A stretch of 64,000 bases of DNA, taken from Arthrobacter sp. FW306-07-I (GTDB lineage: Bacteria > Actinomycetota > Actinomycetes > Actinomycetales > Micrococcaceae). This document shows, one piece after another, positions 9,081 through 40,103 of this stretch (within the stretch, counting starts at the first letter, position 1; each line of letters starts with the position of its first letter). Below the pieces are notes generated by a model. That model made no database searches. It was given only the letters and a program-made list of their open reading frames with translations, and was not told the origin of the DNA. The stretch spans positions 1,116,001-1,180,000 of the forward strand of contig NZ_CP084550.1 of NCBI RefSeq assembly GCF_021800405.1, in the 5' to 3' direction. A program made the translations under genes and the position numbers.

Positions 9081-11159
9081 TTAACGGACAACGACAAGCG
9101 CTTCGCATATACGCTTGGCACCCGGTAGGTCAGCCAAGCGGGCAGCGAGAGTGCGGGTCGCTAACGCCGTCGGTAGGGCAGCAGAGAATTTCAAATCTTG
9201 AATCATCTGCAGAGGGACGAAGGGCAATGCGACTTCTACTCGGTGCGCAGCGGCGCGAATATCCGCGATAGTGACCTGCGCAGGCAAGCGGATCATTGCG
9301 TTGTCTGCACGAGCATCGTCCATTCCCATAGCAGCAAGCAGAGTGAGGTTCGCTTTCAACCCAGCCCAGGTCCAGAACACTTGGCCAGCCTCGGAACGGT
9401 GGAGGACAAGTCCCGACTGCTCTACGGTCTCCGACTGGCTGGCACGGAGCTGGGGCAAATGTTCTTGTGCGCGCTTGGATATCTGGACGTCCGGAGTTGC
9501 ACCGAGGAGGATCTCACGCATGGCTCGCATAATCGCGTAGGATTCAGCAACGCTGCCGCTCTGCCACCGCGAAGATCCCTTTTCTGCCATTTCGCTCGCG
9601 CGAACAACATGCCGGTCCCAGTCCACCGCCTCCACGAGCCAAGAACGGCCAGAAAGCAGCAGCTTACGGGCGGCACCGGTTGGACCACTCCCGACCAAAC
9701 TTATCGGCGCCACAGAGCCAATTTCTCGCTGACCAGCGATCACGGTCAATTCGGGCGCGGCGGTAAAGGCACTCAACAAGTCCATGAAGTAGCGACGGCC
9801 AAACTTCTTTTCAGCCCGGGGTCCGATGAAAAGTAGACCACTGTCCTCTGCTAGGAACTCTTCGTCCCGGAGGAAGTCCAGAATCTCGCCCACATTGTCC
9901 ATAACGGAGAGATCGCCCCACCAGTGTGGCAACGATTCTGGCGAGAATTGCCCCTCCTGCAGAGCCAAGGCCAATATCTGTTGGGCACATATATGGTTGG
10001 GCGCCGTAGGCGGTTCAACAGCCTCGACGAAACCGCGTTTCCAGAGCAACAAGACAGCGGCGGCCCGAAGTAACGTTTCGTAGTTGGTGGTGAGGAAGAG
10101 CGCATTACGCCGCGATCCAGGTCGCCGCCCAGTACGTCCCAATCGCTGTAGGAATGAAGAGACAGACCAGGTTGAGTCGATTTGAATTACCCGATCCAGA
10201 TCGCCGACGTCGATGCCGAGCTCAAGGGTGGACGTAGCAACGATTACGCAGTCACGGCTCTCTGCAAATGCTTGTTCGCTTAGCCTTCGTTCGTCAGCAG
10301 ACAGAGATGCGTGCGAGACGAATGCGGTCACTCCACGCTGGCGTAATGCGTAGGCGAGTTCTTCGCAGTCTGATCGCGACACGCAGAATGCAAGCCTCTT
10401 TTCTCCGCGATGCAGCTTGGAAAGGACTTGGGCTGCGTTGTCGATTGATCCGACGTAGTCGAGCACAACTTCCACGTCAGTAGCCTGGGCGGCTTCCTCC
10501 GAGACCACTACCGACGGCTTTCCGTTGAGCAGGGCCGACCCCTGCAACCAATCGAGTATCTGCTGCGGATTGCCTACGGTCGCGGACAACCCGATGCGCT
10601 GAATAGGTCTACCCGCAATTCGTTGCACTCGTTCCAGGACAGATAAAAGATGCCAGCCGCGGTCATCACCAGCGAAAGCGTGGACTTCGTCAACAACTAT
10701 TGCCCTAACGTTGGCGAAGAAGGCGTCGTGGTCCACGCGCCGAGAAACCAGCATCGATTCAAGGGATTCCGGCGTCGTCAGGAGAATTTCTGGAGGATCA
10801 CTAAGGATGCGCTTGCGCTCCGACGGCCCGACATCGCCGTGCCAGAGTTCGGCCCGCCGGCCGACCCACGAAGCATATGAGTTAATGCGGGGCTGCAGAT
10901 TATTCAGAAGAGCTCGGAGAGGTGTGACATACAGGACGGACAAGCCATACCATCCACCTTCGACCAGCTCGGAGAGTATCGGGAAGACTGCCGCCTCTGT
11001 CTTGCCACCAGCAGTGGGAGCCAGCAAAAGACAGTCCGAACCTGAACGAATAGGCAGGACGGCGGCCCGCTGGAGCGGGCGCAAAGTAGACCATCCCAGC
11101 GAATTCACGATGTGGTATTCGACGGCCTCGTTCAACCCTGGCTGGGCGCTCAAACTCAA
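9081..11159 (-). CDS. brxHI: BREX type 2 helicase BrxHI (Lhr-like)
   Basis: A 692-residue superfamily 2 DNA helicase, the last gene of the Pgl/BREX type 2 operon. Visible motifs are Walker A LAPTAGGKTEAA near residue 48, DEVHAF near 156, GLSATVGNP near 195, ATSTLELGIDVGDL near 300 and QRLGRTGRR near 336. These are the Lhr-type helicase signatures found in BrxHI. The TTG start overlaps the brxD stop (TTGA), matching the coupling seen through the operon. The gene looks intact and full length. Its 3' end lies 76 bp from the right end of IS21 copy 1, which therefore did not damage it. Its exact role in the system is not established. Confidence 0.9.
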   Translation of the reverse strand: MSLSAQPGLNEAVEYHIVNSLGWSTLRPLQRAAVLPIRSGSDCLLLAPTAGGKTEAAVFPILSELVEGGWYGLSVLYVTPLRALLNNLQPRINSYASWVGRRAELWHGDVGPSERKRILSDPPEILLTTPESLESMLVSRRVDHDAFFANVRAIVVDEVHAFAGDDRGWHLLSVLERVQRIAGRPIQRIGLSATVGNPQQILDWLQGSALLNGKPSVVVSEEAAQATDVEVVLDYVGSIDNAAQVLSKLHRGEKRLAFCVSRSDCEELAYALRQRGVTAFVSHASLSADERRLSEQAFAESRDCVIVATSTLELGIDVGDLDRVIQIDSTWSVSSFLQRLGRTGRRPGSRRNALFLTTNYETLLRAAAVLLLWKRGFVEAVEPPTAPNHICAQQILALALQEGQFSPESLPHWWGDLSVMDNVGEILDFLRDEEFLAEDSGLLFIGPRAEKKFGRRYFMDLLSAFTAAPELTVIAGQREIGSVAPISLVGSGPTGAARKLLLSGRSWLVEAVDWDRHVVRASEMAEKGSSRWQSGSVAESYAIMRAMREILLGATPDVQISKRAQEHLPQLRASQSETVEQSGLVLHRSEAGQVFWTWAGLKANLTLLAAMGMDDARADNAMIRLPAQVTIADIRAAAHRVEVALPFVPLQMIQDLKFSAALPTALATRTLAARLADLPGAKRICEALVVVR

Positions 11160-12493
11160 ATCTCGAGATCAACGTCGTCGACGGATCGGCCGCGTCTGTC
11201 GCCCAACCTCGAAGCAGCTAGTTCGGACTCGGTGAGCTCCCCATCCTCGACGGTGAGTGCGTAATCCTTGCGTGGATCGAAATCTGGAAACTGATCCACG
11301 CGGTCCAGAACATCGCCCACGAGTTTCTTGACAAATAATCTTGGGGCGACGCCGGTACGGCCTCCCAACTCCCCAGAGATGGCACGAGCTAGTACCCCAA
11401 CATACGAGTCATCCACGATGGACACAATCCGATTCGACGTGTCACTGCCAGAAGCGTAGATGTCCCGCACCCTACAGCCCAACTCCATCAGAGATTCGTG
11501 GCTAAACCCTGCAAGTCTGATTTGGGCTGCGCGGGGGTTGTCGAACCGGCTGTCTGTGCTGAAGTCAACGGCTAAACGCTGGGCTAGTGGTTGAAGCCGC
11601 TGCATCCCTTGAGAACCGTCATAGAAGGCCGGTGTTCCAGTAATCAAAATGTAAAGGCCAGGGAAGCGCCCGGCATCCACCTCGTCAACCAACTGGCGGA
11701 GTGCATTCAACGACTTCTCTCGAACGTCAGAGCGGACGCGCTGGAGTGTTTCCACTTCATCCAGAACGATGACAAGTCCCTTGTACTCGCTGTCCCGGAG
11801 GATCGTGAGTAGCCCCTGCAGCGAGCCAAGAGCGCCGAAATGGTCGAGCTCGCCCCTAATACCTGCCGTTCGTCGGATCGAGGCCGCCACATGAGGCTGC
11901 CCTCCCAGCCACGCAAGAAGTCCCTCCGCCTGACTGATGTGAGCATCTCGAAGGGCCTCACGGTAGCCGCGAAGCACCGCCGAGAAGGCAGGCGCTGTAC
12001 GTGTTACGGCCTCTAACCTGCGTTCCATAAGAGCCACGACAGCAGTGTCAAATGCTTCAGGATGCTCACGGGACGCGGAACCGGCAGCAATTACGTCCTG
12101 TTCTAGGGCAAAGAACCAGCCGTCAACTATCTCTCGTAGCGCGCTCGGCGCGAACTCGGAAGTCGCAAGATTCTCAGTTACGCGACGATATACGGTTTCC
12201 AGCCGGTGTAGGGGTGTTTCCGTTTCTGAAACTTGTATCTCGGCAGTAGCGAATCCACGCTTCTTGGCTGCCTCGACGAGCCAGCGGGCGAAGAAGGTCT
12301 TACCCGATCCGTATTCGCCGCGGACCGCTTTGAAAACTGCACCACCCATCGCAACAGATTCGAGCTCCTGGGAAATGGCCGGATCGAACTTGTCGAGCCC
12401 AACTGCCAGAACATCAAGGCCTTGCTGCGGTACCGTTCCCCTACGCAGGGCGTCGATAACTTCACGGCGTCTGCGCGGGCTAATTTCTATCAT
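11156..12493 (-). CDS. brxD: BREX type 2 ATP-binding protein BrxD
   Basis: A 445-residue P-loop ATPase of the BrxD type. Walker A is RGEYGSGKTFFARWL near residue 60 and Walker B is GLVIVLDEVETLQ near 243. The length fits the family, and its position between pglZ and brxHI is diagnostic of BREX type 2. The ATG overlaps the pglZ stop (ATGA) and its own stop overlaps the brxHI start, so translation is coupled on both sides. It appears intact. Transcription from the upstream promoter must pass through at least two insertion sequences to reach it, so expression may be reduced or driven from an IS. Confidence 0.9.
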   Translation of the reverse strand: MIEISPRRRREVIDALRRGTVPQQGLDVLAVGLDKFDPAISQELESVAMGGAVFKAVRGEYGSGKTFFARWLVEAAKKRGFATAEIQVSETETPLHRLETVYRRVTENLATSEFAPSALREIVDGWFFALEQDVIAAGSASREHPEAFDTAVVALMERRLEAVTRTAPAFSAVLRGYREALRDAHISQAEGLLAWLGGQPHVAASIRRTAGIRGELDHFGALGSLQGLLTILRDSEYKGLVIVLDEVETLQRVRSDVREKSLNALRQLVDEVDAGRFPGLYILITGTPAFYDGSQGMQRLQPLAQRLAVDFSTDSRFDNPRAAQIRLAGFSHESLMELGCRVRDIYASGSDTSNRIVSIVDDSYVGVLARAISGELGGRTGVAPRLFVKKLVGDVLDRVDQFPDFDPRKDYALTVEDGELTESELAASRLGDRRGRSVDDVDLEI

Positions 12494-14906
12494 CGGACCG
12501 CTCCGAGACTGAACTGTTCAGTCATCAGGCCAATATCTAGGACGACTGTTACACCATCGCTGTCCTGAGTCAGGACTTGGTAGCCCTCTACGTTCAGAAG
12601 GCGTCTCAGCGCCGCCAATTCACTGGTCAGTTCCGCCACAGACACACCACCCGCCCTTGCAAGAGAGTCCCTGTGGATCCGCCCCCCGTGTTGCGCAAGC
12701 ACAGTCAGAAGTTCGTCTACGCGGGAATCCGAGAGGGCTCGCCGTCCTGCCCGGGTTCGTTGATCCTGATACATGCTGCTCTGCATCAGTTCCGGAATCC
12801 ATGAGACTGCAACAGCAGCCGCCGGTTCCGTAACTGGTTCCGGACCGAACTGGAAGAGAGGCTGTTCGCGGCGTGGTTCTGTTGACTTCGCCTTCCTTGT
12901 GGCTCTCGGCCGGGTCTGAACATTATCTGCGGGGTGGATGCGTACCGGATCGTTCCACCAGCCGGGCGTTTGGGGCGGTGCAACTCGCCACCCCTTGGGC
13001 GCCGGCGCCCCAGCCCTGTTGAGAACGACGACCGGCACTATCATTTCCGCCAACGTGCAGCCCCCGTGGTACCCAGCTTGCTTCTGCGAATATCTGAGGT
13101 TCTCAACCACTGGCACTACTGCAGAGCCGCCTGGCGCCAGGACCCGTCTTCCTGACAGTTCCACTTCGTCAGATGCCGCAGGGCCCGAGCTAGTCGGGCG
13201 CCACCGGGCGGCGGCCCCCGCCACCGGCCGGTGTTCAGATCCACGTTCGACGACATGCCCGTGATCGGACGTCAAAATGATCGTCCGGCCTGCCAATGCG
13301 GCGGCTTGGAGAAGGTCCGCCAGATGCTGAATGTTATTCAGCGTCCATGTCGTTCCACCTGGATCGTGTTTGGCAAGGGCGTCGTCTATCGTGTTGAGAA
13401 CGACGCCGATGAGCGGCTTTCGCGGGTCGTTGAGGCCCGCAACTAGGTCTCCGGGCAAACGGGCACCGGCCGGGGCGCGAAGATCGTCTTTATGAAACAA
13501 GGGCGCTCCGAAAGAGCGCTTCTCGTCGGCTTGCTGGCCTGCAGCGAGACGACCAGCAAATAAAGACGTTCTGGAAAAGGTCGTTAGGGATGGAATTGCA
13601 GAGAGAACACCACGACGGGAGCGACCTAATCCCTCGAGATCTTCTACAAGTTCCTGCCATCCGCTATTTACTACATCTTCGACAATTGAGTTTGCCGTAG
13701 CTGCACTCATGCCATCTAGGACTATCAGCAGACAACCAGTCACACCGGTAAGGGGCTTCACAACGTGAGGCAGGATGTCCTCCGTTCCAGACACAGTGTC
13801 GACAGGCGGACCTGCGAGCTCTTCCGAGATTTTTTTGGCAAACTGCCGATCACGCAGACTCCGTCGCACCTGAACCAAATTCAGGACACGGGCATAGGCG
13901 GCAGCATTCGACTCGAAGTTGGATCCAGTCCAGACGGTGGCCGCCGCACGGTCCACCCAGCTGCCGTCAGCCATGTGGAGGGAAACGCAATCGCTCAACG
14001 ACTGTGGAGCTGATTCCTCCGAAGCTAGCCAACGGACAAGCCTGACCACCATGCGGGCTGCCTCGGCTTCCCCCGACGGACCTGCTGCAAGCTGGTGATC
14101 CAAGAGATCATTAAGCACGCCTTCGATCCGCGGCAAATCCACGGAGGCTAGATTCGCAATCATGAGGGCCTCGGCCAACTGCACGGCACGTGCAGCAAAT
14201 CCTGCCGGCAAGAGGTCGGACCTGGACGCGCCTTCAGTCCACCCGATGTCTGCGAGCCACGTTTCAGCTTGTTGCATCACAGCGGGGACCAAAGAGTCAC
14301 CTGCGAGGCTCATTCGCAGCAACGCTTGCCTGGAAGCAGACGCAAGTGCACGTGCTTCCCTAGGACTAATCGGCGCGCTGCCAAAATAGCGTTCGGCTCG
14401 GGTCCTCGCGGCTATTTGTTCGGTGGCTGGGCTTCTCGCATCGGAGGAATCCGGCCACAACACGTCTAGCGCGACTCCAAAGGCCAGGACCGAAATCTTG
14501 CTCGCAGATGAGGCTGCCAGGGCGAGCCTAGCGGCCTCGCCGAAGCTTCGGCCCACCCACGTAGTAAGCGCGGTTCGAAGCTCCGGGCTAACCACGGCCC
14601 ATCGGGTTCGGATTTCTGGAACATCCAATGCCACCAGAAGGTGTGTTTCGTCGATCGAATCGTTGACACTCATACCCAGCACAGACGTAAGCAGGCCGCT
14701 CATCGCCAGATCCGCAGTAACAATGCCAGAGGGTGCCTTTGGCCAACCTCCTGGTGGACGGTGTGCGATAAGGCTCTGCGGGAGCCAATTGCCGTAGTCC
14801 CGTAGCTGTGGATCATAGCTCACAGCACTAAAGAGCTCAGGAATAGTCGACCACTCGTCCAAGAAGTTGACCCGCTGTCCACGGGACGGAATGGTGACAG
14901 CATCGC

Positions 14907-15899
14907 CTAGCTGTACTGCCCAGGCAGGTTGGTTAAGCGGCTGATGGGCGGGTGGCCTCCGATTGCGGTGTGGGGCCTGTGGTGATTGTAGTGGTGCAGC
15001 CATGCCGGGAGGGCGTTTCTGCGGGCTGATTCCGTAGCGTAGAAGCGTTTGAATGCCCACCCGTCGGCAAGGGTTCGGTGGAAACGTTCAATCTTGCCGT
15101 TGGTCTGCGGCCGGTAGGGTCGGGTCTTCTTTGCCCTGATGTCCAGCTCCCGGCAGGCGTCGCGCCAGAGATGTGATTTGTAGGCCGCCCCGTTGTCAGA
15201 GAGAACCCGTTCCACGGTGACGCCGCGGGCAGCGAACCAGGACACAGCCCTTTGCAGGACTGCTACTGCGGTGGCTGCCGTTTCATCGCCGTGGATCTCG
15301 GCGTAGGCGACCCTGGAATGGTCGTCGATGACCGTGTGCACGTAGGCGGTCCCGATCAGCGGGTTGCGGTGTTTGCTGCGGGGCTTTGAGGGAGTCGCAG
15401 CACGGTTCTGTTTGCCTTGCTGCCGGCCGACGTAGCGCCAGCCGCCGCCGTCGGGGATGTTGCCGAGCTTCTTCACATCGACGTGGATCATCGCTCCGGG
15501 AGTCTCGTGTTCGTAGCGGCGGATGACTTCTCCGGTGCGCTTGTCCACGTGATGAAGGCGGTTCAGCCGGCACCGGACCAGGACCGCGTGCACGGTCGAG
15601 GCCGGCATGGCCAGCTTCGCCCCGATCGCGACCGGTCCCAGCCGTTGCTTCCAGCGCAGGTGCACGACTTTGCGCACCAGCTGCTGCGGCGTCCGGTTGG
15701 CCACCCGGTACGGGCGGGAGGACCTCTCAGCCATACCGGCCTCACCCATCGCGGCGTAACGGGCCGCCCACCGTTTCGCGGTCGGCCAGGAGCAGTTGAA
15801 CTGCTCGGCAGCCCGGGATACTGGCCAGCCGTGGTCCACGATCAGACGCGCGACGCGCAAACGTTGGCGCGGAGTCAAAGCGGCATTAGCGTGGGACAT
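14907..15899 (-). CDS. IS481-family transposase, copy 2
   Basis: A 330-residue DDE transposase with an intact frame. The N-terminal helix-turn-helix (RLIVDHGWPVSRAAEQF) is followed by the integrase core: MIHVDVKKLG and HTVIDDHSRVAYAE, then LSDNGAAYKS, then RPQTNGKIERFHRTL with the glutamate. The start follows AGGAGGTCCTC. The final codons are GGG CAG TAC AGC TAG. The element itself ends within the AGC codon, so the TAG stop comes from the CTAG target site. The same arrangement is seen in the other IS481 copy. Confidence 0.93.
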   Translation of the reverse strand: MSHANAALTPRQRLRVARLIVDHGWPVSRAAEQFNCSWPTAKRWAARYAAMGEAGMAERSSRPYRVANRTPQQLVRKVVHLRWKQRLGPVAIGAKLAMPASTVHAVLVRCRLNRLHHVDKRTGEVIRRYEHETPGAMIHVDVKKLGNIPDGGGWRYVGRQQGKQNRAATPSKPRSKHRNPLIGTAYVHTVIDDHSRVAYAEIHGDETAATAVAVLQRAVSWFAARGVTVERVLSDNGAAYKSHLWRDACRELDIRAKKTRPYRPQTNGKIERFHRTLADGWAFKRFYATESARRNALPAWLHHYNHHRPHTAIGGHPPISRLTNLPGQYS

Positions 15900-15974
15900 G
15901 AGGACCTCCTGGTCGCTGCAGCGGTTGTCTAAGCAACTCCACTGTGCAACCGGAGGTCCTCACCTTTGGGTCAA
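14912..15974 (-). mobile_element. IS481-family element inside pglZ (copy 2)
   Basis: About 1.06 kb. The outer end at 14912 begins TGTACTGCCC and abuts CTAG, the usual IS481 target. The other end reads inward from TTGACCCAAAGG and lacks both the expected TGTA terminus and a second CTAG copy, so roughly 10 bp appear to be lost at that junction. One complete transposase gene is present. The damaged end suggests that the copy is now fixed and that pglZ cannot be restored by simple excision. Confidence 0.88.
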
Positions 15975-18900
15975 CGACTCCAGCGAGTCATCACATTCAC
16001 CCAACCAACGTCCCTGGGTAGTACACCTAGCTCCTCCTCCGGGACGTCAGTCAAGATGATCAGGAGATCACCAGCAGGAAGGTCCGTGACAGCCTCCAGA
16101 GCGGCAAGCTGCGACACTGCCGTTCTGACCCATACCGTTATACCTTGGGCAGCATACGATGACGGACCGTTCCAGATGGGCCGGGCGGCTAAGAGCATAA
16201 TTCGGCCGGCTTCGGGGGACTGCGCTATCCGATGCGCGTACTCCTCGATGATCTGCGGTGACGCTACCCTAAGCGTTGACCCAACTTCCGAAACGGTCAC
16301 TCGATCCACCACTTCACATGGACTGTCTTTCCAGGATTATCAACCATCGCGCGTTTGAGCTGCATTTCGAATTGGCTCAGGTCCACTTCCGGCCCGTTCA
16401 GTATGAGGTCGACGGCGTTAAGCCTGTCGAGTGTCCCCGCTTGCTTGGGCTCGTCTGAAGGCTCCACTGAACTTGGGAGGTCCCGTGCTTTCGTCGGAAC
16501 GTCCGGGGGAGTGGTTTCCTTCCCCCTAGTCGGGGTCTCGACCTCCTCAGGCGGAGTTGTCGGAGGTAGTGAAGGCTGGCGCATGAGGATGCTGAGGGCG
16601 GCCTCTTTGGCAGCAGCGATTGCGGGAGCGAGCGGTGAATGGAACTCGTCAGCGATCGCAGCTGTCTGCAGTGAGTCCAGCACCTGGATCCATTCGGGCT
16701 CTGATCGTGCTGTGAGCTGGTTCAGGACCTTCCACTCCGCGTTGCGGAGTGTGGAAACAACGGCTGGTGCACTGGCGATAGACTTGCCTAACGCCTGAGG
16801 TTCGGCTGGAATGTCGGCAATGGCGAGGGCCCTTAGCAGCGATGTGTCGTTCACTTCGCTAGCCAACGCAGCTGTCAAACTTGAAGCCTCTGTTGCTGTT
16901 TTGAGTCGGTTGCCGTTGGCGGTCGATTCATGCATCTCGCTGTTAAGCCCTAGAACCACAGCGTGCCGTTGAAGTTCTTGGACAAGCTGGTGAGCGGACG
17001 TCTGGGCCACTGATGCGGCCTGCCGAACCAGCCGTGCCAGTCTGCTGACTCCTTGGGCGCTCAGACGGGGTTCTGCTGGAATACCAAACACCGTCGCTGC
17101 GCGGTGGTTTGCAATCGTCCAATCATCCGCGGAAGGAAGCTCTGGTGTTCTGAGCGACATGTCGGATGTGATGCCACCAACCGTTGGAGTTGCTGAAAGG
17201 GGCGCTTGAGCGCGGAACCATTGCCGGTCTTCGAGCAGGGTCCAAGCGAGGATTAGTAGATCACCCACTTCGGTGGATACCCCGTAGTCCTCCAGATGCG
17301 CCCGAAGGGTGGATATCTTGAGGTCGAGTGCTTCGGCGGCAGCCCACTTGGTGAAATTTTCCATCCACCCAAAGTTGGACGAATTAAGGGAAAATACGGT
17401 CTCTCGTGGCTCACCCAGCTGGAGGGGGATAGCAATGCGGCGAAGTGTCGCTGCCTTGGACCTTTCTATTCCGTCCAGCCGGCCGCCCTTGGATACACAT
17501 TCTTCAACCAGAGAGGCAATGGCGGAGAGCTCAGCCTTTCTAATTTCCGTTTCGCTGGGCTCAAACAGCGGGTGTTTGGGATAGAGGTAAGTCAGCGCTG
17601 TCGCCAAGGCAGAGTTGAGACCGGCCCTCAAATCAGCTGCCACCGGTGGTCGAAGCTCAAGGCCGGGCAGGAGACTTGTGAGGACTGAATCGCCGGCGAT
17701 GACCGCGTCCACATCGTCGGCAGTGGCGGTATCAATTCCGTAAGCCTGAAGAAGCGCGCTCTTGAGGCGCTCCCTGATGTTGGAGCGCTGGCTTTCAAGC
17801 TGGCGTTTTGCAATCGGCCGGTCAGAGACGGGCAGGTTGCTCGCGTTCGCCTCGAATTGCTCTCCAGATCCTTTGAGGAGGTGCTCGAGAAGGACCAGCC
17901 GGCCGACGTCGTTGAGACGGGCCGCGGAGAGGAAATGCGGAACCCAGGCGATGGTTCGTGATTCAAGGCCGGCATCCCGCAATTGTGCAAGGCGGTTCAG
18001 GTCTTCCTGCGCACTGTGGTTACCGGAGTCAAAGGGGACGTCGATGACGACCTTCCATCGGTCGCCCTCAGCGCGGAGAGCATCGTCCGGGAGAGACGAT
18101 GCATCACGGATGTTCCCGAAAATAACATCAACAACCCGTTTGGTTCCTCGCCACACGTGAGTGAACTCGCGCGTCGACATCAACCCCACCGCCGCTGGGA
18201 GGCCTAGGTGTATTGACCACGGAGGTTAGGAACATGCGGCGTGGTTAGGTGACAAAAAGAAGACCTCCAAGTGGAGTGGGGCTTGTCTAAGAGTCCGATC
18301 CACAAGGAGGTCTTCAATGTCCCATGCTAACGCGCTTCTGACGCCGAAGGGACGGCTCCGGCTGGCCCGGTGCATCGTCGATGACGGGTGGCCGCTGCGC
18401 CGTGCTGCTGAGCGGTTCCAGGTGTCGGTGACGACCGCAGCGCGGTGGGCGGCCCGTTACCGGGAGCACGGGGAGCACGGGACGGGTGATCGTTCCAGCC
18501 GGCCCATCAACTCCCCGCGTCGGACCTCCACGCGGCGGGAGCGGCGGATCGTCGCGATCAGAGTCAACCGGCGCTGGGGCCCGGCACGGATCGGCTATCT
18601 GCTGGGCATTCACCCCTCCACGGTGCACCGGGTGCTGTCCCGGTTTGGGCTGGCGAGGCTGGCGTGGATGGACCGGGCCACGGGCCGGGTGATTCGCCGG
18701 TACGAGCACCACAGCCCCGGGGACCTGGTCCACGTCGACATCAAGAAACTTGGACGGATCCCTGACGGCGGCGGACACCGCAGTGTCGGCAGGGCCGCCG
18801 GAAACCGGAACAAGACCGGTACCGCGGCGAACCGGAGACCGGGTCACGCCTTCTTGCACAACGCCGTCGATGATCACTCCAGGCTCGCCTACACGGAGAT

Positions 18901-19196
18901 CCTGACCGATGAGAAAAAGGACACTGCGGCCGGATTCTGGGAACGCGCCAATGCCTACTTCGAGTCCCACGGGATCACTGTCAAACGGGTCCTGACCGAT
19001 AACGGATCCTGCTACCGCTCCTACGCATTCAAAGACGCTCTGGGCCCGGACATCAAGCACAAACGCACCCGCCCCTACAGTGGCAGATAGCTTTTGTTGG
19101 AACTGCTGGTCTGGGTAGTTGGTACTGGGGTTCCGGGAAATTGGTACCGGCCCTTCGCTTGTCCGCTCGGGGCCGGCACCATGTCCTGGTTGGGGT

Positions 19197-19964
19197 CTAT
19201 TCCCAGTGGCCCGGTTGCGCTCGGGCCGTATCGTCGCGGAGTCGTCGCATGTCCACGTCGCCGAGGTTGAGTTGGCGTGCATTGTTTGCCAGCCGGTTCA
19301 CGATCGAGTCCGCGGCCACCCGGTCCGGCAGGGCCTCGACCCAGTAGGCCGGGCCGGATTGGGAAGCGATGAGCGTGGGCAGGCGGTGTTCCCGGTTGGC
19401 CAGGACCGCGAAGAGGTCGTTGGCCGCTTCGGGGTCGATGCCCACGGTAAGGAAGTCATCGATGACCAGCAGGTCCACGTCCGAGAGCTCGTTGAGCAGC
19501 TTTTGGTGGCCGATGCCGTCACCGCGGGCGATGACCAGCCGGCGGGCGAGGTCGTCCATCCGGGTGTAGGCGACGGTGTGTCCGCTTTGGCAGGCGGCGA
19601 TCCCGATCGCGCAGGCCAGGTAGGTCTTGCCTCCACCGGTTGGTGAGATGACCAGGAGGTTCGTGGGGTCCTGGCGCCATTGGTGGGCGGCGTAGCGCTT
19701 CATCCGCACCGGGGTGATCCCGCGTCCTTCCTGGTAGTTGATCTCGGCGACCGATGCTTGCGGGATCGGGAACCTGGCGGCCCGGATGAGCTTGTCGATC
19801 CTGTGGGCCCGGCGCTGGTGGAGGGCGTCGTCCACTGCGGTGAGGAAGATCTGCTCGGGAGTGAGCTCGTCATTGGCCTCGTCGGTGATTAGTTCCTCGA
19901 ACCGCAAGGCCAGGTGCGCGATGCGCAGGGTCCGGAATTTCTCGTGGTCCTCGCTGGTGAACAT
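19197..19964 (-). CDS. istB: IS21 helper ATPase IstB, copy 2
   Basis: A 255-residue AAA+ ATPase with Walker A ISPTGGGKTYLACAI and the Walker B-like VDLLVIDDFLTVG. Length and position downstream of istA fit the IS21 helper. The start overlaps the istA stop by one base. The protein differs substantially from the IstB at 6472-7260, so the window holds two different IS21 lineages. The frame is intact. Confidence 0.93.
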   Translation of the reverse strand: MFTSEDHEKFRTLRIAHLALRFEELITDEANDELTPEQIFLTAVDDALHQRRAHRIDKLIRAARFPIPQASVAEINYQEGRGITPVRMKRYAAHQWRQDPTNLLVISPTGGGKTYLACAIGIAACQSGHTVAYTRMDDLARRLVIARGDGIGHQKLLNELSDVDLLVIDDFLTVGIDPEAANDLFAVLANREHRLPTLIASQSGPAYWVEALPDRVAADSIVNRLANNARQLNLGDVDMRRLRDDTARAQPGHWE

Positions 19965-21577
19965 CAGCCCTGGCCTCCCTGTCCGTCGCGCCGGTAGTGC
20001 TCGGCCGAGCGCACGTGCACCGCCGCCTGGATGCCTGCGCCGGGGTCGGCACCGCCGGCGGGTTTGCGGGTGGCCGCCGCCGGTGTGATTGTTTTGGGTT
20101 TTTTAGTGTCGGAGTCGATGGTGGCCATGATCCGTTTGATCGTGCTGTAAGTTCCTGGGCCCTGACCGGTGTCGAGCAGGACCTGGCAGGCGGCCTCCAG
20201 GCGGGCCTTGTTCCGCTTGCCCAGGGACTCCAGGATGTTCTGGCAGTCCAGGTACCCTTGGGCCTCCACGGTGTGCCGGTCGATGATCCCGGCGATGACC
20301 GCCTCGGTGGCTGGCCCGAAGCCCCGGGCGCGGTCCGTGAACCACCGCTTGGACCACAGCCCGTCGATACCCCGGTGCCGGGTAGGGGCATGCGCGACAT
20401 CGGTCGAATACTGGCCCTTCCGGCCCAGCCGCCGGACATGCTCGCAGATGACCTGGTCCCCGTCGAAGACGGTCACTGTCGTGGAGGTGACCCGGACCCG
20501 CAGCAGCTGCCCGGCGTAGGTGTAGGGCACCGAGTAATGCTGGGAATCGCAGCTGACGTGGTAATTCCGTCCGACCTTGAGCTGCTTCCATTCCACCGAG
20601 TCGAACCCGTCGGCCGGCAGCGCCTGGAGCAGGCCGGACTCATCGGCGGTGAACCGTTCCCACCGGGTGCTGCCATCGGCCCGGGGAATCCGCTCGTTGA
20701 TCTCCACCAGCCGGGCCCCGATCGCCTCGTTCAGGGCCTGCACCGTGGTGAAGACCTCCTCGGCCAGATAGCCGATCACCCGCTTGTTCACCACGTTCAC
20801 CGCCGACTCGGCCGCAGCCTTATCGCGGGGCCGTTTCGCCCTGGCCGGCACGATCCCCGTCGAATAATGCTCGGCCAGCTGCTGATACCGGGCGTTGAGC
20901 ACCCGGGCCGACTCGCCCCGCTTCGGCCGGTGAGTCGAGGTCGCCGGATTGTCCGGGACCACCAGCTGCGGGACCCCGCCATAGAACGAGAAAGCCGCCA
21001 CATGGGCGGCAATCCAGGACGCCGATGTCATGTCCGTATACCCATGGCAGAACACCGCCCCGGAATACGGCAGCACAGCCACGAACAGATAGACCCCGGT
21101 CACCTCCCCGGTGACCGCATCCACAACCCCCAGGGTGTCCCCGGCCCAGTCCACCAGCATCGCCCGGCCCGGCTCGTGGTGCAGCGTCGCCACGACATCG
21201 GTCACGCGGGCATGCTCGGCGAACAGGGCGCAAAACTGCGAATACCCGTACTTCTTCCCGCCGTTCGCGGCACTCGAGACCAAGTACCTGCTCCAGGCCT
21301 GCTGGAGAGTGAAGTGCCGGTTCTCCCGCATCGAAGCCAGCACCCGATCAAAATCCGGGCGTTCGTATAACTCCGTGACCCTCTTACGACCATCCGGAAA
21401 CAACCGGGCGATCTCCTGCGGGGACATCGCCCCGATCTGCCCTGCGGTAAAACCGTAAGCCGCAATCGTCTTCTTCGCCGCGGCCACGTCACGGCGGGAA
21501 CACCCCGCCACCGCGACGATCTCGTCATAGCTCCGACCAGCAACAGCCAAGGTCATAATGGCCTTGAAATCGGCCAT
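19964..21577 (-). CDS. istA: IS21 transposase IstA, copy 2
   Basis: A 537-residue DDE transposase with an N-terminal helix-turn-helix (SYDEIVAVAGCSRRDVAAAK) and catalytic acidic residues in MLVDWAGDTL, LVVPDNPATS and RDKAAAESAVNVVNK. Length is normal for IstA. It is transcribed against the IS481 transposase it interrupts and in the same direction as the pgl operon. An outward-reading promoter on this strand could help to express the 3' half of pglY and the genes beyond, which is inference only. Confidence 0.93.
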   Translation of the reverse strand: MADFKAIMTLAVAGRSYDEIVAVAGCSRRDVAAAKKTIAAYGFTAGQIGAMSPQEIARLFPDGRKRVTELYERPDFDRVLASMRENRHFTLQQAWSRYLVSSAANGGKKYGYSQFCALFAEHARVTDVVATLHHEPGRAMLVDWAGDTLGVVDAVTGEVTGVYLFVAVLPYSGAVFCHGYTDMTSASWIAAHVAAFSFYGGVPQLVVPDNPATSTHRPKRGESARVLNARYQQLAEHYSTGIVPARAKRPRDKAAAESAVNVVNKRVIGYLAEEVFTTVQALNEAIGARLVEINERIPRADGSTRWERFTADESGLLQALPADGFDSVEWKQLKVGRNYHVSCDSQHYSVPYTYAGQLLRVRVTSTTVTVFDGDQVICEHVRRLGRKGQYSTDVAHAPTRHRGIDGLWSKRWFTDRARGFGPATEAVIAGIIDRHTVEAQGYLDCQNILESLGKRNKARLEAACQVLLDTGQGPGTYSTIKRIMATIDSDTKKPKTITPAAATRKPAGGADPGAGIQAAVHVRSAEHYRRDGQGGQG

Positions 21578-23774
21578 GCTGCCTCCTCACATAGGAAAAG
21601 GCGGCGCCCAGTGCACCGCCTCACCCACAGCGCAGCACCCACAAACCACGACAGTACCAACTCACCGGAACAGCAATACCAACAACCCGGAACACGAGTA
21701 CCAACTCACGCTATCTGCCATACAGGCCTCAGACAAACGGCAAAGTCGAGCGCTACAACCGCACCATGCTCGACGAATGGGCCTACGCCCGTCCCTACGC
21801 CTCCGAGGCCGAGCGTGTTGCCGCTTTCGCCGACTGGCTCCATCATTACAATCATCATCGAGGCCACACCTCACTCAACGGTCAGCCACCGGCCAGCCGC
21901 GTCACCAACCTCTCAGGTCAATACACCTAGGAATTCACTGACCAGGTTGCGTAGAACCGACTGCCGCGCGCCTTCGGTGTCCTCGTTCTGGACTCTCTCT
22001 ACGATGGAGTCATAATCGACCCCCGAGAGGCTTACGCTCAAAATCGGGTCCGAGGAGGAACCGGAGATGCTGATTTCGCCGAACTCCCCGGACCAGTCCC
22101 GGACCTTTTCCAGCACGGCAAATGCTTCCTGGCCGGGGATAAAGCTCTTGATAGTGCCGTAGTTCAGTGCTGCCAGTTTTGCCGCCGTGAGGTTCTGCAA
22201 GGACGGGGTACCCGGGACGATCTCGGCCACCAGGAGTGTTTTGGCCAGCCGGTCTTCGGCAACGAATGCGTGAGTTCGAGGCAGCGCCGCGGCATCAGCT
22301 TCGCTAATCCCGTGCTTCGACAGCAGGTAGGGTCGCAGCTTGTTGAGGTAGAAGTCGGCAGCGATTCGAAAGAGCTTCTCGATATCCGAGCTGAGAGGCT
22401 TTTTGTCGCTCAACACGACAGCCTCGAACAGGTCGCCGACGGGGATAACATCTGTTACCAGCAGCTGTTCGCGTCCTGAGCTGAGCAGCTCACCCATCAC
22501 CTTCAGAGCCGTCCGCTCGCGTTGAAGGAGCGAGGACAATGCGACTAGGGCGTCTATGAGCGCCGGGGAAAACGGGTAAACCAGTTCGAAGTCCACGGCA
22601 CTTGAGCCAGCCTCATCGGAGAGCAGGTGGCGCATGGCTCCGGGGTTGGCTTTGACACTGGCCGTAGCTTGGGCGAGGGCACGGGACCCTTCAGCGGAAG
22701 TGGGCTGGAGGAGTCTTTGATTGACGATGCGGGGGAGGTCTGCGGCCTTTAGTGTTATAGCCTCAAATCGGTCTTCCCACCACGAAAAGCTTTGACCAAT
22801 GGCTTCACGTTCGGCGCCAATGGCGGTACTTCCGAGGAAGTCTTTCAGGTCTCGCTGCCTCGCCACAAAGGAGATCAGTGGAATGCTGAGGGAGCCGGTG
22901 CCTGTCTCGACGAGTTTGGCCACTTTGGACGTTTCCGACTGGATAAAGTCGTTGTTGCCCAGGTGTTGGGCAAGCCACAAGACGAGTTCATCCAGGAACA
23001 GAACGACGCCGTCGTAACCGAGGCCATGTGCATGGTCAGTCATCGCTCGGAGCCCACTGGATATATCGAGCCATTGGCCGGTGTTCTCGTAGCTTCGGTA
23101 AAGCGTTGCGGTTAGTGCCCGGGCCAGTTGGTCTCGTTCCGAGCTGCCGACTGGCTCCAGCAGAGCTGCGTCGAATCTGTCACCATTCCAGCTGGTTGTC
23201 AGCTCACCCCACCCGCTACTTTGCGAATCCCCGTTAAGGATGCGGAAGAAGGCCTCATCTTGGAGTTCCTTCCGCATGTTTGCAGCATCTCTAAACAGCT
23301 CGTCACTGCGGTGCAGAACGGCCGTGGGTGAATTGGGGTACAGCTTTCGCGTCTGGTCCAGGTAGCCCCGGAACAGGGCGCTTTCGAAACTTTCCGCGCC
23401 GAGCAAGTGGTAGTCGACCGCCAGGAGTTTTTTCGACAAGAGTCCCTCGTGCGCGGCAACGCTCGACTGGAGATTTGTCAGCTGCCGGGCGTGGAGGTTT
23501 CCTGCAAGCAAGAGGTGCAGGACGGCCATGAAGTGGCTCTTACCGGCACCGAATGAACCGTGGACAAAGGCACCGTTACTGCGCCCGTTCTCCAGAGATC
23601 GCTCGACAAGTCCCAGGGCCTCATCAAAAGACTTGGCCAGCGAATCAGTGACGACATATTCACCCAGGGTTTTCTCAGCGGCTTCCACCCCACTGTGAAG
23701 TTGAAGAACGAAGTCCGCTGCGTCCACGTGCTCCGGAATATCAATGACGTCTTTCAGGAGGCCGAAATTCGCGT

Positions 23775-26700
23775 TCATACAAGGGTCTCCGTATCCTCGA
23801 CGCTGGCGTTATTACGACGGCGACCTCGCACGGTGGATGCAGCGGGCCGCCAATTGGTTAGATCAGCTCGAGTCAGCGCCAACCGTGAAAGATAGCTGTC
23901 CAACATCCCTGTGATAGCTGCGGCAGGGCTTGAGCCCATCGCCGGGTCGACGTCTGAATGCCACTGGATTACCCATGGTTCGAGCTCGTGGAGCCCTGCC
24001 AGCATCGGTTTCAGCTGTTCAGGCGTTGCGCCTTCGGCGTCAAGCTCGACAGTAGCCCGCGCCAATGCCAAGGCAGCAGTCGCGTGATCCCAGCCCGCCC
24101 AACCGAAAACGGGGGTGGTGTCGCCACTGCGCAGGAGTCCAGGGAAGGAGATGAACCGTTCCTTAGGGACATCCAACTTGCCCCGTGCTTGCCAATAGCT
24201 TGTCTTCTGGAAATCGACAGGTTTGTATTTGGGCGGGACTGGGACGTCGACTTTTTCGCCGGAGTCTTCGCGCCGTTGCAGATCCCAAACAGCCTGCCAG
24301 CCGCGGTACTTGGTGAGGCCTGATTCCTTGTACCGGTGCTGTGCGAGGTACGGCACCGCCTCCTCCGATAGAAGAGACGTCAACGCCGGCACCAGCTCAA
24401 CATGCGTTGATCCGGCCAGCACTTGAAGAGCCTCGACCAAGACCGCATCGTGGCGTGCAGCATCGGCCAGTTGGGCCACGGACTTACAGGATGCGCCTTG
24501 TGGGTCCGACCAGAGCGAGGCATCTTCCAGCCGGTCCAGGACGAGCTCGCGCAGCGCGCGTTGCTGCTGAAGGTCCCATGGTTCGGTCGCCCATCGGCGC
24601 TTGAACTCCGGTCGTTCGAGCAGCTGGATGTGAGGATTGTCTTCGATTGCCTGGAGACGACGTTGCACCAAGTCTTTGTAGTCGTCCGGCCAGCTCGAAG
24701 GGATTGAGGTCTGAGGAACGGTTTTATGACGTTCAAACCAAGCAGATTTCGCAAGGCCGAGTTCGATCTGCCGGGCCAAATGGATCTCGAAGGCACGCTC
24801 ACCAAGGTTCAACACACCTAAGTCCTCGGAAGAACCATAGGTATAGGTTTGGTCCAGCAGTCCATAGGCCGCGTAACTTGCCCAGTCGAGTTCTTCCTGC
24901 TCAAAAATCATGTGTTCCCAAGTGGCTGTCCACTTCGCATGTGCAACCTTCAACGAGGCCGCCAGCGATTCGGAGGGCTCAGTGGCCGCGAAGACGTGGA
25001 CGGACCGACTTGGGGACACCTCGCTCAAGGTTGTTGCCAAGGAGTCGAGCAGTGCGCCACGGTCAGCAGGCAGTTCAGCCGGAAGCGGGAACTCTTGCAG
25101 TTTGGTTGAGGTGAATTCGTAGCGGTCGTCCCAAGATTCAGCGCTTACGCGAGCGCCATCACCGCCGACCGGATCACCCCCCCTTCGGATAGCTGACCTG
25201 CTTAAGCCAGAAGCACGCAGTTGACGAGTTCAGAATGGCCATTAGGCCCAGATGCTGTTCTTCTGTCGCGTCGGCAGGCAATTTGATCACGGGTGCAGAC
25301 TGCTTGAAGACCTTTCCACCACGGTCCAGCACAAAGTGATTGTGCGTCGCGACGAAAGCGAAGGCTATTGACATCGGGACTTTGACTTTGGATTTTGCGA
25401 GCATCCCATACTCAAACCACTCCATACCCCGCTCTTGGCGGGTCTTTCCAAACATTAAATAGCCGGAAACCGTTCGTCGAGTCCGCCACATCCAAGGAGA
25501 TTTGTGAGCGTGGGGAGAGATTGCCAGTGTCGAAGTGTAGGGCCAGAAGCGTGGCTTTGAACGAAGGCCAAAGTCTCGGAGCATGTCGCCTTCAACAACC
25601 TCCTTCGTTGCCTCTCTGGTCCAAGTGGGCACTTCAAACGCATCTTCCTCGCCGAGCACAGCCACGATGCCAATTTCTGTCACAGTAGATCCGAGCGTGG
25701 ACTTTGAATTTGTCTCGATATATTCCTTGAGTTGCCCTGCGCCACCTCCCGACAGCGACCAAGGGTGAGTAGCAAACTCCTCTCGTGCAGGTGTCACCAC
25801 AGTTACATACCTGCCATTGAAGGATTCGTCATTGACGTGGTTATGAATCTCGTTCCAGACCAAGCCTTGGTTAGGATTCTTTGGCTGGGCAGGCTCTCCA
25901 CGGACGCCCAAGACTGCCCGAACAGTACTACCGACAGGCGCTCGCCTTCGTCCGATGAGAATCACAGTGGGGGTGCCATGACCCGGAATGTACGCGCCAG
26001 ATGTGTCGATGATGTGTGTGAGATCTACTGGATTGGAGATCGTTTTGCCCGAAAGTAGATCCTGAATAAGCTTCTTGCCGAATTCCCGTTTCATGAAGGA
26101 ATTCGACGTGATTTGTCCTACGTGCCCGGCAGCGGTGTCGGCGGATCCCCTGATCGCGAGGCGGAAAAAGAGCTCCATGAACGGGACGGAGAGGGCGTAC
26201 TTGCCGGCACAGGTCTCGTAGGCCCGGCGGTACCACTCGTTGAGAGCCTTGTCCTTGACGGTGATGTAGGGCGGGTTTCCAACTACGACGTGGTAAGTAC
26301 CAGGCTCCAGTATCCCCTTGTAGTCTCCTATGTCCTCAGAAGTGTAGGAGTAGGCATCTTCTCCGTCTTCAAAGAGGTCTCCCTGACGGCCTTGTTGGCC
26401 GATGAGTGAGTCGCCCACCGCCAAGTGGTAGGAGAACGCTGGTGCCGTGACCAGAGATGACTCCCCGCAGGCGCGAAGGGCGGCCACGGTGAGCCTGAAT
26501 CTCGCGATGGCCACCGCAAACGGGTTCAAATCAACACCATGGATGGAGTCCAGAGCGTTCTGCACCCTCTGGCGTTTGGAAAGGCCTGGGCTCTCGGCCT
26601 CCCATTCGCGGTGAAGCCGTTCAAAGGCTCCAAGCAGGAAGTGGCCGCTTCCGCAGGTTGGGTCAATCATTTTCAATTCAGCGATGCCGAACTCGTGGAT

Positions 26701-27372
26701 GGCTGGAGTGAGTGTCTGATCGAGGATGAATTCCTCGATGAAGTCGGGCGTCTGCAGGAGCGCGAAGGTCTTCTTGGCGTAGTCTGAAAGGTCTTGGTAA
26801 AGGTCTCCGAGGAACCGGGTCCCGTAGTCGGGGTCGGTGAAATCGTGGCGGAGTGCGCCGCCGTCGTCGGTCTGTCGCCAGAACTTGAGCAGAGCGCTGG
26901 CTGACTCGGCGCTGATGGGCGCCCGCCACACCAGATTGTGTTTTCGGTCGACAAGCGCCCGGCCCGCGGGCAGATCCGCGAGGGCGCCGAAAGCTGTCTT
27001 TAGCCAGTCGCGGGCATTGTCGGTGGGTAGTTTCGCGTAGTGGGCCATCTCGGCCTCAGAGGCCCGTTGGGTACGGTCGGCTGGCCCCGCGATCCAGAGA
27101 TCATTTAGGAGGGCGTTGTCTTCACAAAAGCGGATGAAGACGGTGGCGACGATCCAGGCGACAGCGGCCTGGGAGATCTCTCCCTCGAGCCAGTCATCGA
27201 AGGTGCGTGCTGTGCGGTCGTGGTCGCGGGCATGCTGGTGCTCTTCGCGGAGCTCCTTTGCCCACCTTTCGGATTCTTCACCCGAAGGGCGCTTGGCTTC
27301 ACTTCGTAGATCGGATTCTAGAAGCTTCAGCTGTTTCTTGAGATCTGCGAGAAGAAGCTTGGAATCGATCAC
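23775..27372 (-). pseudogene. pglX: pglX, BREX adenine methyltransferase, frameshifted in a G-tract (possibly phase-off)
   Basis: PglX is the N6-adenine DNA methyltransferase of BREX. The 5' part shows the SAM motif DPTCGSGHFLLGAF near residue 235 and the catalytic NPPY in VVVGNPPYITV near 362, then stops at residue 732 in SYPKGG. The 3' part (from about 25170) continues the conserved region in another frame (GARVSAESWDDRYEFTSTKL). The shift lies at seven consecutive G on the coding strand (25177-25183). Six G, or nine, would give one frame of about 1198 residues, the normal size. The GTG start overlaps the pglW stop (GTGA). The 421-residue downstream frame from a TTG at 25040 is probably not translated on its own. 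Sequencing error is the main alternative to phase variation. Confidence 0.92.
25177..25183 (-). repeat. G7 homopolymer tract in pglX, candidate phase-variation site
   Basis: Seven consecutive C on the plus strand, read as G7 in pglX, are followed directly by the in-frame TGA at 25174-25176. Loss of one G restores the full reading frame; gain of one gives a different early stop (TAA) 13 codons later. In Streptomyces coelicolor, pglX is known to phase-vary through length change of a G-tract, so the same mechanism is plausible here. Confidence 0.75.
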
Positions 27373-36696: not shown

Positions 36697-38838
36697 ATGG
36701 AAAACTCGCCCCTGATGCCGATTAAGGCTCCGCTTTTTGCAATGCGGTCCAACGCCGGGCCCTTGGATAACCTTGCAATCGTTCTTGGCCCTGGCGTCAC
36801 GGCGTTATACGGGCAAAACGGGGCAGGTAAGACTTGGATCCTGAATTCCCTTAGGCGTGCTATGAGGGGAATTTCAACAGGTTCTACACAACTTATCTAC
36901 AAGTTTGAGGTTGGATCAGCGGGGTATGAGTGGACTCTAAATCAAGTAGCAGAAGCTGCCCGCGAGACACGGTACGATGCAACGGCCGACCACGATAGGG
37001 AGTGGCTGCAACAAGCCATCAAAACCTGGTTCTATGAGGGCGGCCGGTACCTGAAACCTTTTAACCTAACCGACGACATCCCGTCCGGGCTCGTTGAGGA
37101 ACTTGCGTCAGCGACGGAGTTTGCAATCATTCCCACGGGCACTGCAGCGCCCGAATGGGACGTTTGGCTCTGCATGCCACGCGACAGTTCGCGCTTCCCA
37201 GCTTGTGCCCGAGCGATCGAGGACTTTACCCGGATGCGCGAAGAAGCATATCGTCTGGAGGATGAGCATTTGCAAAGAGTTGCGGAACTAGAGTCCAAAG
37301 TCTTATGGGTGAGGGAAGAACTTGGGCGGGAGTTGGAGCAGCGCTACGAAGAGGAAGTTGAGCCGCTGCTTTTAGCTCCGCTTTTTCAGCCTTTAGCGGC
37401 GTTGCTTTGGGAGTATACCTACATGCCGGAACCAGAAACAGTCGACCAATGGCTTGATCCTATGATTTCCGATTCGCTCCCCATTCCCGTCGTCAAACTT
37501 TTTGCTACTCGCGAGATTCCTCTGGTGCTGGAATCAGACGAAGATGAAACAGACATAAACTCTGCTACCTCAAAGGTATTTCTAGACGTATTCCAGAAGA
37601 ACCTTGACAACTCCGACGAAAGCCTTGATTTTACTCCTGCAATGAGGACTTGGGTGAACGACCTAAATATTGCAGCGAACAGCCTGTATGCCTCGTTGCT
37701 CCAAGATGCTCCGCCTCTAACTCTGGAGGTGCGCAAGTTGGGCCGGTGGGCTGTCGAAGGTGCTTTGCATTGGTATGTGGCCTACGGCGACAAAGGGAAT
37801 AGCCGCGTCCCTGTAACGGAGTTATCCCGAGCAGAGAGCAGATGGGCACGCATCGCCATCCGCCGCGCACTAGATCTCACTGGTGCGACTACCACGGTAA
37901 TCATAGACGAACCCGAGGCCGCACTTCACCGCAGCGCCGAACGCCACATGGCTCAGGGCCTCGACGGTCTGACAGCAATGGGACCGCAGGTTGTGGTTGC
38001 CACCCATTCTCCAGAAGTTTTAAATGCACAGACCACCGGTTGCGTTCATGTTGCTAAGCACGACGGTCGAACACATGTTGGCCAGATGCCGCCAATGGGA
38101 CAAGAAACTCTGGCGGAGCTGGGTCTATTACCCTCGGACTTGCTTGGCCTGTACCGCATATTTCTCCTCGTGGAGGGAGAACACGACGAGATTGTAATCC
38201 AAACTCTGTGCAGTGACTTCCTCGACGCCGCAAGGGTGAAGATAATACCCATGCGTGGAGGACGGAATCTTCCAGGCACCTTGGAAAGCCAGCTGCTGTT
38301 TGATCTAAGCGACGCACATCTCGTGGCTGTTCTCGACAGTGTTCGGGCAGAGGACATTACGTCCGCCTGGATGGAAGCTCAAACGCGCTACTTATCCGAA
38401 GATGCGGAAAGTGCCATTGATTATCTTGCGGAAGCATTCAATTCGAAAAGGGTGATGGAGCACGAGTGGATCGTGAACTGGCTTAGTCGTGCAATCAAGA
38501 AGGGCGTTCACTCGCGTTTGAACCCTTACGGCTTGGCTGCGCGTGACATTATCGAATATCTTCCTGTCGAAGTCCTCGTCCCGAAAGCCGGCAAGTCATG
38601 GGAAGAGCTGCGAAGAGAGCATGACACAGCACTGCCAAAGTTAGATAGAGCGAAAGGCCTTCATGTTTATAAAACCTGGCTCAAGCATGCTTACAAAGCC
38701 GATACAACCGTTCCCAATATTCGAATAGCAGCCGAATCCGTTAAGGAGGTTCCAGAGGACCTCTGGAACCTCGGATACCACCTCCGAGAGATCAGTTTCC
38801 GGCCGCGTACCCTCGGCGTTGTTTCCCCAAAGAGCTGA
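36697..38838 (+). CDS. OLD-like AAA ATPase with TOPRIM-like C-terminal domain
   Basis: A 713-residue protein. Walker A is LYGQNGAGKTWIL near residue 38, followed by a long helical insertion, a signature-like LSRAESRWARIA near 375, Walker B TVIIDEPEAALH near 400 and a switch histidine in VVVATHSPEVL near 434. After residue 485 a TOPRIM-like domain begins with IFLLVEGEHDE. The place of the second TOPRIM acidic pair reads LVAVLDSVRAED, so the usual DxD is degenerate. OLD-family proteins are ATP-regulated nucleases common in phage defence. G+C content is lower than in the metabolic genes. It is divergent from the PLD unit, and the ATG at 36697 has little Shine-Dalgarno support. Confidence 0.8.
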   Translation: MENSPLMPIKAPLFAMRSNAGPLDNLAIVLGPGVTALYGQNGAGKTWILNSLRRAMRGISTGSTQLIYKFEVGSAGYEWTLNQVAEAARETRYDATADHDREWLQQAIKTWFYEGGRYLKPFNLTDDIPSGLVEELASATEFAIIPTGTAAPEWDVWLCMPRDSSRFPACARAIEDFTRMREEAYRLEDEHLQRVAELESKVLWVREELGRELEQRYEEEVEPLLLAPLFQPLAALLWEYTYMPEPETVDQWLDPMISDSLPIPVVKLFATREIPLVLESDEDETDINSATSKVFLDVFQKNLDNSDESLDFTPAMRTWVNDLNIAANSLYASLLQDAPPLTLEVRKLGRWAVEGALHWYVAYGDKGNSRVPVTELSRAESRWARIAIRRALDLTGATTTVIIDEPEAALHRSAERHMAQGLDGLTAMGPQVVVATHSPEVLNAQTTGCVHVAKHDGRTHVGQMPPMGQETLAELGLLPSDLLGLYRIFLLVEGEHDEIVIQTLCSDFLDAARVKIIPMRGGRNLPGTLESQLLFDLSDAHLVAVLDSVRAEDITSAWMEAQTRYLSEDAESAIDYLAEAFNSKRVMEHEWIVNWLSRAIKKGVHSRLNPYGLAARDIIEYLPVEVLVPKAGKSWEELRREHDTALPKLDRAKGLHVYKTWLKHAYKADTTVPNIRIAAESVKEVPEDLWNLGYHLREISFRPRTLGVVSPKS

Positions 38839-39438: not shown

Positions 39439-40103
39439 TCAGTGGGCGTCCGTCGCCGGAGGAGTCCGCTCCACAAAGTGGCCCAGCTGTGCCAAATCCG
39501 GATGGGACGACGGACCGCTCACGGCATCGGCCCCCACCCCGTTCGCCACGGCCAGGGCTGGGGGTGTAGTCCAACCGCTACGCAGTGCCAGGACCAGGGC
39601 GGCGCAGAAGGCGCTGCCCTGCCCATTGTATTCGCCACAAGCACAGCCTCGGACGGCGCCTCGGCCACCCTCTGGCCGTGCTCGAACATCGCCGAGCCCT
39701 CGCCACCGTATGTCACCGCCACCAGCTTCGCGTCAGCGAGGGCCGGGATTAGGGCGTACTCGCTCTCGTTGACGATCACCAGGTCGCACCGTTCCAGCAG
39801 CTCCGGCGGCAGGTCCATGGCAGGCGCCGCGTTCAGCACGAAGAACCCCTGCGTCTTACGGGCTGCCTCTAGCACCACGTCCAGGCCCACCTCAAGCTGG
39901 CACAGGACCGCCTCCTCCGGACCGAACTCAACCGCGTCCAGCGACAGGTGCGAGTTGGCGCCCGGGCACACCACAATCTGGTTCTCGCCCTCGCGGTCCA
40001 CCACGATCAGCGCGGTCCCGGTCGGCTCCGGCAGGATGGCCACGTCGGAGGTGTCCACGCCGACAGCGGCCAGAGCGTCCAGCATTGTCCGCCCCTGCGC
40101 GTC
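39439..40103 (-). pseudogene. 5'-truncated and frameshifted PfkB-family sugar kinase (ribokinase-like)
   Basis: The remaining sequence starts abruptly at DAQGRTMLDALAAVGVDTS, which matches the middle of the N-terminal half of ribokinases, so the first third is missing. The substrate and ATP regions follow (VVCPGANSHLS, VIVNESE). Near 39625 the frame shifts; the continuation reads SAFCAALVLALRSGW and ends TPPATDAH at the TGA 39439-39441. The catalytic GAGD motif appears as GQGS, so the catalytic Asp is also lost. The 5' break coincides with the IS481 relic at 40103-40124. Confidence 0.8.

Follow-up and report, generated by a model that had tools for sequence, protein, structure and literature searches.

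A frame break at a seven-G run in pglX of an Arthrobacter type 2 BREX/Pgl operon that looks recently shut down

Among the closest known counterparts of the locus considered here is the Pgl system (pglWX/pglYZ) of Streptomyces coelicolor A3(2). Its pglX is reported to vary at a G run, from 8 to 7 (PMC4365076), which agrees with the phase variation by G-tract length named in the original prediction; eight G were present in a Pgl+ strain, and two out of the three strains deleted for pglZ had seven. According to the same paper, deletions of pglZ were obtained only very rarely, except where pglX was missing or a further pglZ had been supplied, and a C-terminally cut PglZ was thought to retain antitoxin activity. 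Disruption or phase variation of pglX is called frequent or common in PMC9122589 and PMC11341690. At the protein level, the closest described systems are the N6-adenine methyltransferases with a built-in recognition domain (TRD), namely CamA, BrxX and MmeI. In MmeI, bases are reported to be contacted by four residues towards the end of the TRD, Leu805, Glu806, Arg808 and Arg810 (PMC4833311), and variability of the TRD in type 1 BrxX has already been published (PMC11842806).

The window, by which we mean the whole stretch of 64,000 nucleotides analysed, contains one minus-strand cluster in which PADLOC profiles recognise pglW, pglX, pglY/brxC, pglZ, brxD and brxHI (Table 1). This cluster is a type 2 BREX/Pgl operon. 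Like the S. coelicolor system, it has all four pgl genes, and its pglX changes frame at a G run. In S. coelicolor, both states occur at known frequencies and the partner genes are present, whereas the window has an interrupted pglY and an interrupted pglZ, and a single state is seen in one assembly. All six components of type 2 BREX are recognisable, but three of the six are broken, pglX being out of frame and pglY and pglZ being interrupted.

Table 1. Features of the operon in window coordinates
Feature	Position	Strand	Basis
pglW, kinase with NERD domain, intact, 1408 aa	27369..31595	-	PADLOC PglW E=0; Pfam Pkinase, NERD
pglX upstream piece: methyltransferase and most of TRD, 732 aa, up to G7	25174..27372	-	PADLOC PglX 1-735; Pfam Eco57I methyltransferase
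G7 run at pglX frame break; TGA directly after, at 25176-25174	25177..25183	-	
pglX downstream piece, other frame: rest of loop and DUF7008	23775..25183	-	PADLOC PglX 791-1187
pglY/brxC N-terminal half	21913..23778	-	PADLOC BrxC 4-629
IS481-type element within pglY, itself holding an IS21-type element	18209..21925	.	
IS21-type element nested in the pglY IS481	about 19081-21720		istB 19197-19964, istA 19964-21577; istA/istB domains
pglY/brxC C-terminal half	16297..18189	-	PADLOC BrxC 639-1237 of 1240
pglZ 5' fragment, open frame of about first 94 codons; start inside end of pglY	16026..16312	-	
IS481-type element within 5' end of pglZ	14912..16025	.	rve and IS481 leucine-zipper, ORF 14907-15899
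pglZ remainder, from codon 95 of the 900-codon G035 gene; PglZ domain kept	12490..14911	-	PADLOC, Pfam PglZ
brxD	11156..12493	-	PADLOC BrxD E=3.3e-202
brxHI helicase	9081..11159	-	PADLOC BrxHI E=3.4e-280

Seven C on the plus strand (25177-25183) read as seven G in the coding direction of pglX, and the TGA abuts this run, as had been predicted. The start frame (27372..25174) closes with Lys-Gly-Gly-TGA, and the continuing frame is offset by one base and holds 469 open codons beyond the run. By coordinate arithmetic, 27372..23775 minus one base makes 1199 codons including the stop, that is, the 1198 residues foreseen for the deletion of one G. The two pieces lie end to end on the PglX profile PDLC02529 (1-735, then 791-1187, of 1189), and the proposed identity of the gene as pglX holds. 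The upstream piece has the N6-adenine methyltransferase motif NPPY (as GNPPYI) and matches Eco57I and MmeI methyltransferase profiles, while the downstream ORF, listed at 23775-25040, matches Pfam DUF7008 (E=2.7e-145). The run is inside the pglX reading frame and its length sets the frame in this one assembly. No other G/C run of at least seven lies within the window, and the 4.56-Mb genome has 28 distinct such runs in all. When about 500 codons were inspected on either side of each run, it alone among the 28 was flanked left and right by frames open for more than 400 codons, in different phases of the same strand.

Both pglY and pglZ are interrupted by IS481-type elements. Each insertion is flanked by a perfect 6-base target duplication, CCTAGG in pglY (18203-18208 and 21926-21931) and CCTAGC in pglZ (14906-14911 and 16026-16031), and DNA comparison finds both sites empty in G035, a genome of the same genus. 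IS481 elements favour NCTAGN targets. In the pglY element, a plus-strand ORF (18317-19090) encodes the IS481 leucine-zipper and rve domains; a minus-strand ORF (18314-19282) gave no Pfam match, the transposase being on the plus strand. The left part of this element, over about 880 bases, occurs seven times in the genome, and the pglZ element has five full-length copies, the resident copy included in each count and the identity being 100% (rounded) in both cases. Multiple copies at such identity point to recent transposition. A search of the genome with the intact PglZ of G035 returned one pglZ locus only, in two pieces; residues 1-119 match 15965-16312, a match that has one stop and extends into the IS element. 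Elsewhere in the window, a 12-base IS481 left end with a CCTAGC flank lies at 40103-40114, where none of the five full copies is located, and a second IS21-type istA/istB pair (6472-8858) sits beside brxHI.

The operon of G035 is open from end to end (pglW 1408, pglX 1206, pglY 1256, pglZ 900, brxD 445 and brxHI 701 codons), and its PglW is 97.9% identical in amino acids to that of the window. The outer parts of the two PglX proteins are alike and the TRD/loop part is not, with 48% identity over residues 541-732. The open pieces of pglY span G035 residues 0-619 and 622-1256 of 1256, the pglZ remainder spans 94-900 and the pglX downstream piece 785-1206, and these pieces were chosen as open frames, so that the absence of internal stops is by construction. 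The dN/dS values relative to G035 are 0.010/0.142 for pglW, 0.073/0.849 for pglX residues 1-540, 0.185/0.940 for the pglX downstream piece, 0.012/0.240 and 0.050/0.307 for the N- and C-terminal halves of pglY, 0.054/0.484 for pglZ, 0.042/0.781 for brxD and 0.065/0.903 for brxHI; wherever both values were obtained, dN is below dS, pglX residues 541-732 giving no dS. Since the open pieces span nearly whole G035 genes with dN below dS, the decay is young.

We therefore interpret the G7 allele, with moderate confidence, as belonging to a recently shut-down defence operon in which a pglX-off allele is tolerated or favoured, and not as a selected switch. The operon looks like such a shut-down system more than a working on/off switch because two partner genes have been cut by jumping elements. 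The sequence shows that IS481-type elements cut pglY and pglZ and that the one-base frame break at G7 ends translation after the methyltransferase/TRD part, ahead of the C-terminal DUF7008 part. According to this scenario, the slip would have occurred at this place because GGG codons specify the Lys-Gly-Gly of an exchangeable loop, and not through selection for a switch. The pglX-off allele would then most likely be tolerated or favoured since, by analogy with S. coelicolor, active PglX would be harmful where the PglZ antitoxin is gone. With pglZ damaged and pglX off, the window resembles a natural version of what was seen in that organism, and could provide an example from outside Streptomyces for the view of PglX as toxin and PglZ as antitoxin. 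Some points speak against this explanation. The pglX slip may have preceded the IS insertions, and the pglZ remainder, with 806 of 900 codons and its PglZ domain, might still be active if translated, as was supposed for the C-terminally cut PglZ of S. coelicolor. A homologue of type IV methyl-directed restriction enzymes (2157-5312, PDLC03659) is encoded by an open gene that adjoins the operon, and the toxicity of PglX could be due in part to a nuclease that depends on methylation.

The relation between the two genes was also surveyed in 30 genomes behind loci of a pattern scan (described below). An open pglZ was found in all 25 genomes in which pglX is not truncated within the locus, these controls having been hand-picked from 110; judged by name they all belong to Actinomycetota, and in several the locus ends before the pglX stop. 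Among the five genomes with a truncated pglX, two (L035 and L130) have an open pglZ, L047 has pglZ in two frames, and L061 and L092 have none at E up to 1e-10. The Fisher p of the association is 0.0025 for the 30 genomes and 0.0005 with the window added; leaving out L047 and L061, which are not Actinomycetota, it is 0.015 with the window counted and 0.11 with the window not counted. That broken pglX tracks broken pglZ is suggestive only, as general decay predicts the same trend.

Plain neutral decay is, in our view, a possible but less convincing account, in which the operon was killed by IS elements and pglX then slipped at its most mutable site under no selection. In its favour, homopolymer runs are ordinary indel hot spots, and the same operon has two further lesions, made by multi-copy IS elements. 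However, the pieces still span nearly whole G035 genes with dN below dS, so the decay is young, and the single small lesion hits the gene whose product, in S. coelicolor, is toxic without PglZ (PMC4365076).

A working phase-variation switch, with the sequenced clone caught in the OFF state, is improbable. The proposal that this pglX carries such a switch is supported as regards a pglX out of frame at G7 and is not supported as regards a working switch: switching of pglX would change the phenotype only in a system otherwise intact, and with pglY and pglZ cut by IS elements a slip in pglX alone could not restore defence. In its favour are the G-run switching known in S. coelicolor (PMC4365076) and the frequent or common disruption or phase variation of pglX noted in PMC9122589 and PMC11341690. 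Against it, seven G is short, and the nearest relatives of the window PglX are without the run. Within the genus, pglX was detected in 10 of 206 genomes (E up to 1e-60), as 11 copies with that of the window; the ten other copies are all open, at 1194-1414 codons stop to stop. Conservation of the run in the genus was ruled out, seven or more G occurring at this place only in the window (G7) and in one copy of the genome G598 (G8) among the 11. The original prediction had taken a non-repetitive in-frame sequence in all relatives as counting against a switch; nine of the ten other copies have one, and the G598 copy does not. That genome carries two pglX genes in tandem, both intact, whose loops differ (L197, 12609-16211 and 16281-19868; also L153), one of them with an in-frame G8 (Lys-Gly-Gly-Asp), which lends the switch reading some support. 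This G8 is one of four runs of at least eight G in G598 and is a better candidate for phase variation than the window. The same assembly has a 37-G run (G598:C1:857603-857639).

Beyond the genus, a contig scan for the pattern F-W-x-K-Q, four codons, K-G-G returned at least 120 loci, from which five non-PglX loci (L044, L073, L078, L110 and L122) were removed. Among the 115 K-G-G PglX relatives thus listed, none is broken at the run, which also argues against a switch; five (L035, L047, L061, L092 and L130) are truncated further downstream, and four (L034, L038, L087 and L109) have seven or more G, as compared with about 6.9 expected by a crude estimate. No run of this length was present here in 392 genomes of a presumed Streptomyces genus; three named Streptomyces contigs (L034, L038 and L087) do have one, in frame. 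An order-level draw of 396 genomes, a sample without G598, had it in the window's own genome only. In the listed loci, GGG at the Lys-Gly-Gly site was seen 29 times versus 54 expected from gene-wide codon use, and its share there (29/230, or 0.126) compares with 0.157 at 716 other Gly-Gly pairs of the same genes. By these codon counts GGG is not enriched at the site; we say "not enriched" and not "depleted" because the other Gly-Gly pairs have a similar share. In the genus, the order and the K-G-G loci listed, the run is thus neither kept in relatives nor enriched beyond codon use. The suggestion that the same type of switch operates in another genus therefore finds no backing in this one assembly, with its nearest relatives lacking the run and GGG not enriched. 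A G run in pglX is by itself no switch, and the partner genes must be examined too. We also considered programmed frameshifting or transcriptional slippage at G7, which might yield some full-length PglX.

Single-base homopolymer errors are typical of long-read sequencing, but an assembly error concealing an in-frame gene is improbable as well, given that only one of the 28 G/C runs of at least seven shows a clean frame break, so that homopolymers are not generally mis-called, and that the lesions in pglY and pglZ make a genuine loss plausible.

The Lys-Gly-Gly encoded by the G7 run stands early in a loop, a segment of ~20 residues that follows the conserved LNSSTACFWLKQV. Among the matches listed, the closest backbone relatives of the window protein (85-86% before the loop) carry a different loop, and its best loop matches are in proteins only 60-63% alike; the nearest named PglX proteins there are from Pseudarthrobacter and Arthrobacter. 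The alignment comprised 106 of 120 proteins listed among 7983 matches, 14 short or very similar ones being omitted, and the statistics were computed on 105, without the truncated PglX of the window. In the numbering of P0081 (Arthrobacter globiformis), the TRD occupies 561-680 and the loop 738-762. Identity in the loop hardly follows that of the backbone (rho 0.09, permutation p 0.02), and the same is true of the TRD (rho 0.10, p 0.015) and of loop against TRD (rho 0.02, p 0.24), whereas five control segments gave rho of 0.26-0.64. Among the matches listed, the loops fall into 12 recurrent classes and 5 single ones. In the pair P0030/P0032 the loop alone is exchanged (backbone 0.91, TRD 0.96, loop 0.32), and in P0050/P0085 the TRD alone (0.94, 0.29 and 0.96, respectively). 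Judged by these identities, PglX proteins exchange the loop as a cassette, with little regard to the backbone or to the main recognition domain. Among the titles and abstract openings covered, none describes a swapped loop in type 2 PglX. One further protein, P0053, is a 751-aa PglX that ends in the same loop, either at a contig end or as a second broken allele.

P0081 is predicted (mean pLDDT 87) to adopt the CamA/BrxX/MmeI fold, with residues 189-849 matching CamA 6-577, loop included; the loop itself is poorly predicted, pLDDT being under 50 at 749-751 and 753-759. Compared with these methyltransferases, PglX here adds a cassette-like loop of ~20 residues and the C-terminal DUF7008. The loop may read DNA. 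More tentatively, type 2 PglX might read DNA with two independently exchangeable modules, the TRD at about 561-680 and the ~20-residue loop at 738-762 in about a dozen recurrent cassettes. Since some cassettes encode Lys-Gly-Gly, the slippability of pglX, and with it phase variability, would come and go with the specificity cassette, and the toxin/antitoxin wiring would turn a slip into a survival event upon loss of pglZ. The comparison exposes in type 2 PglX a short loop with the exchange behaviour of a specificity cassette, and it makes recognition by type 2 BREX testable through the methylomes of natural pairs that differ in one module only.

Elsewhere in the window, an OLD/GajA-like AAA ATPase (36697-38838) is encoded on the pglW side of the cluster, and a Wadjet-type (JetABCD-like) cluster with JetD_C, an SbcC-like ATPase, an MksE-like protein and DUF3375 occupies 42986-49722.
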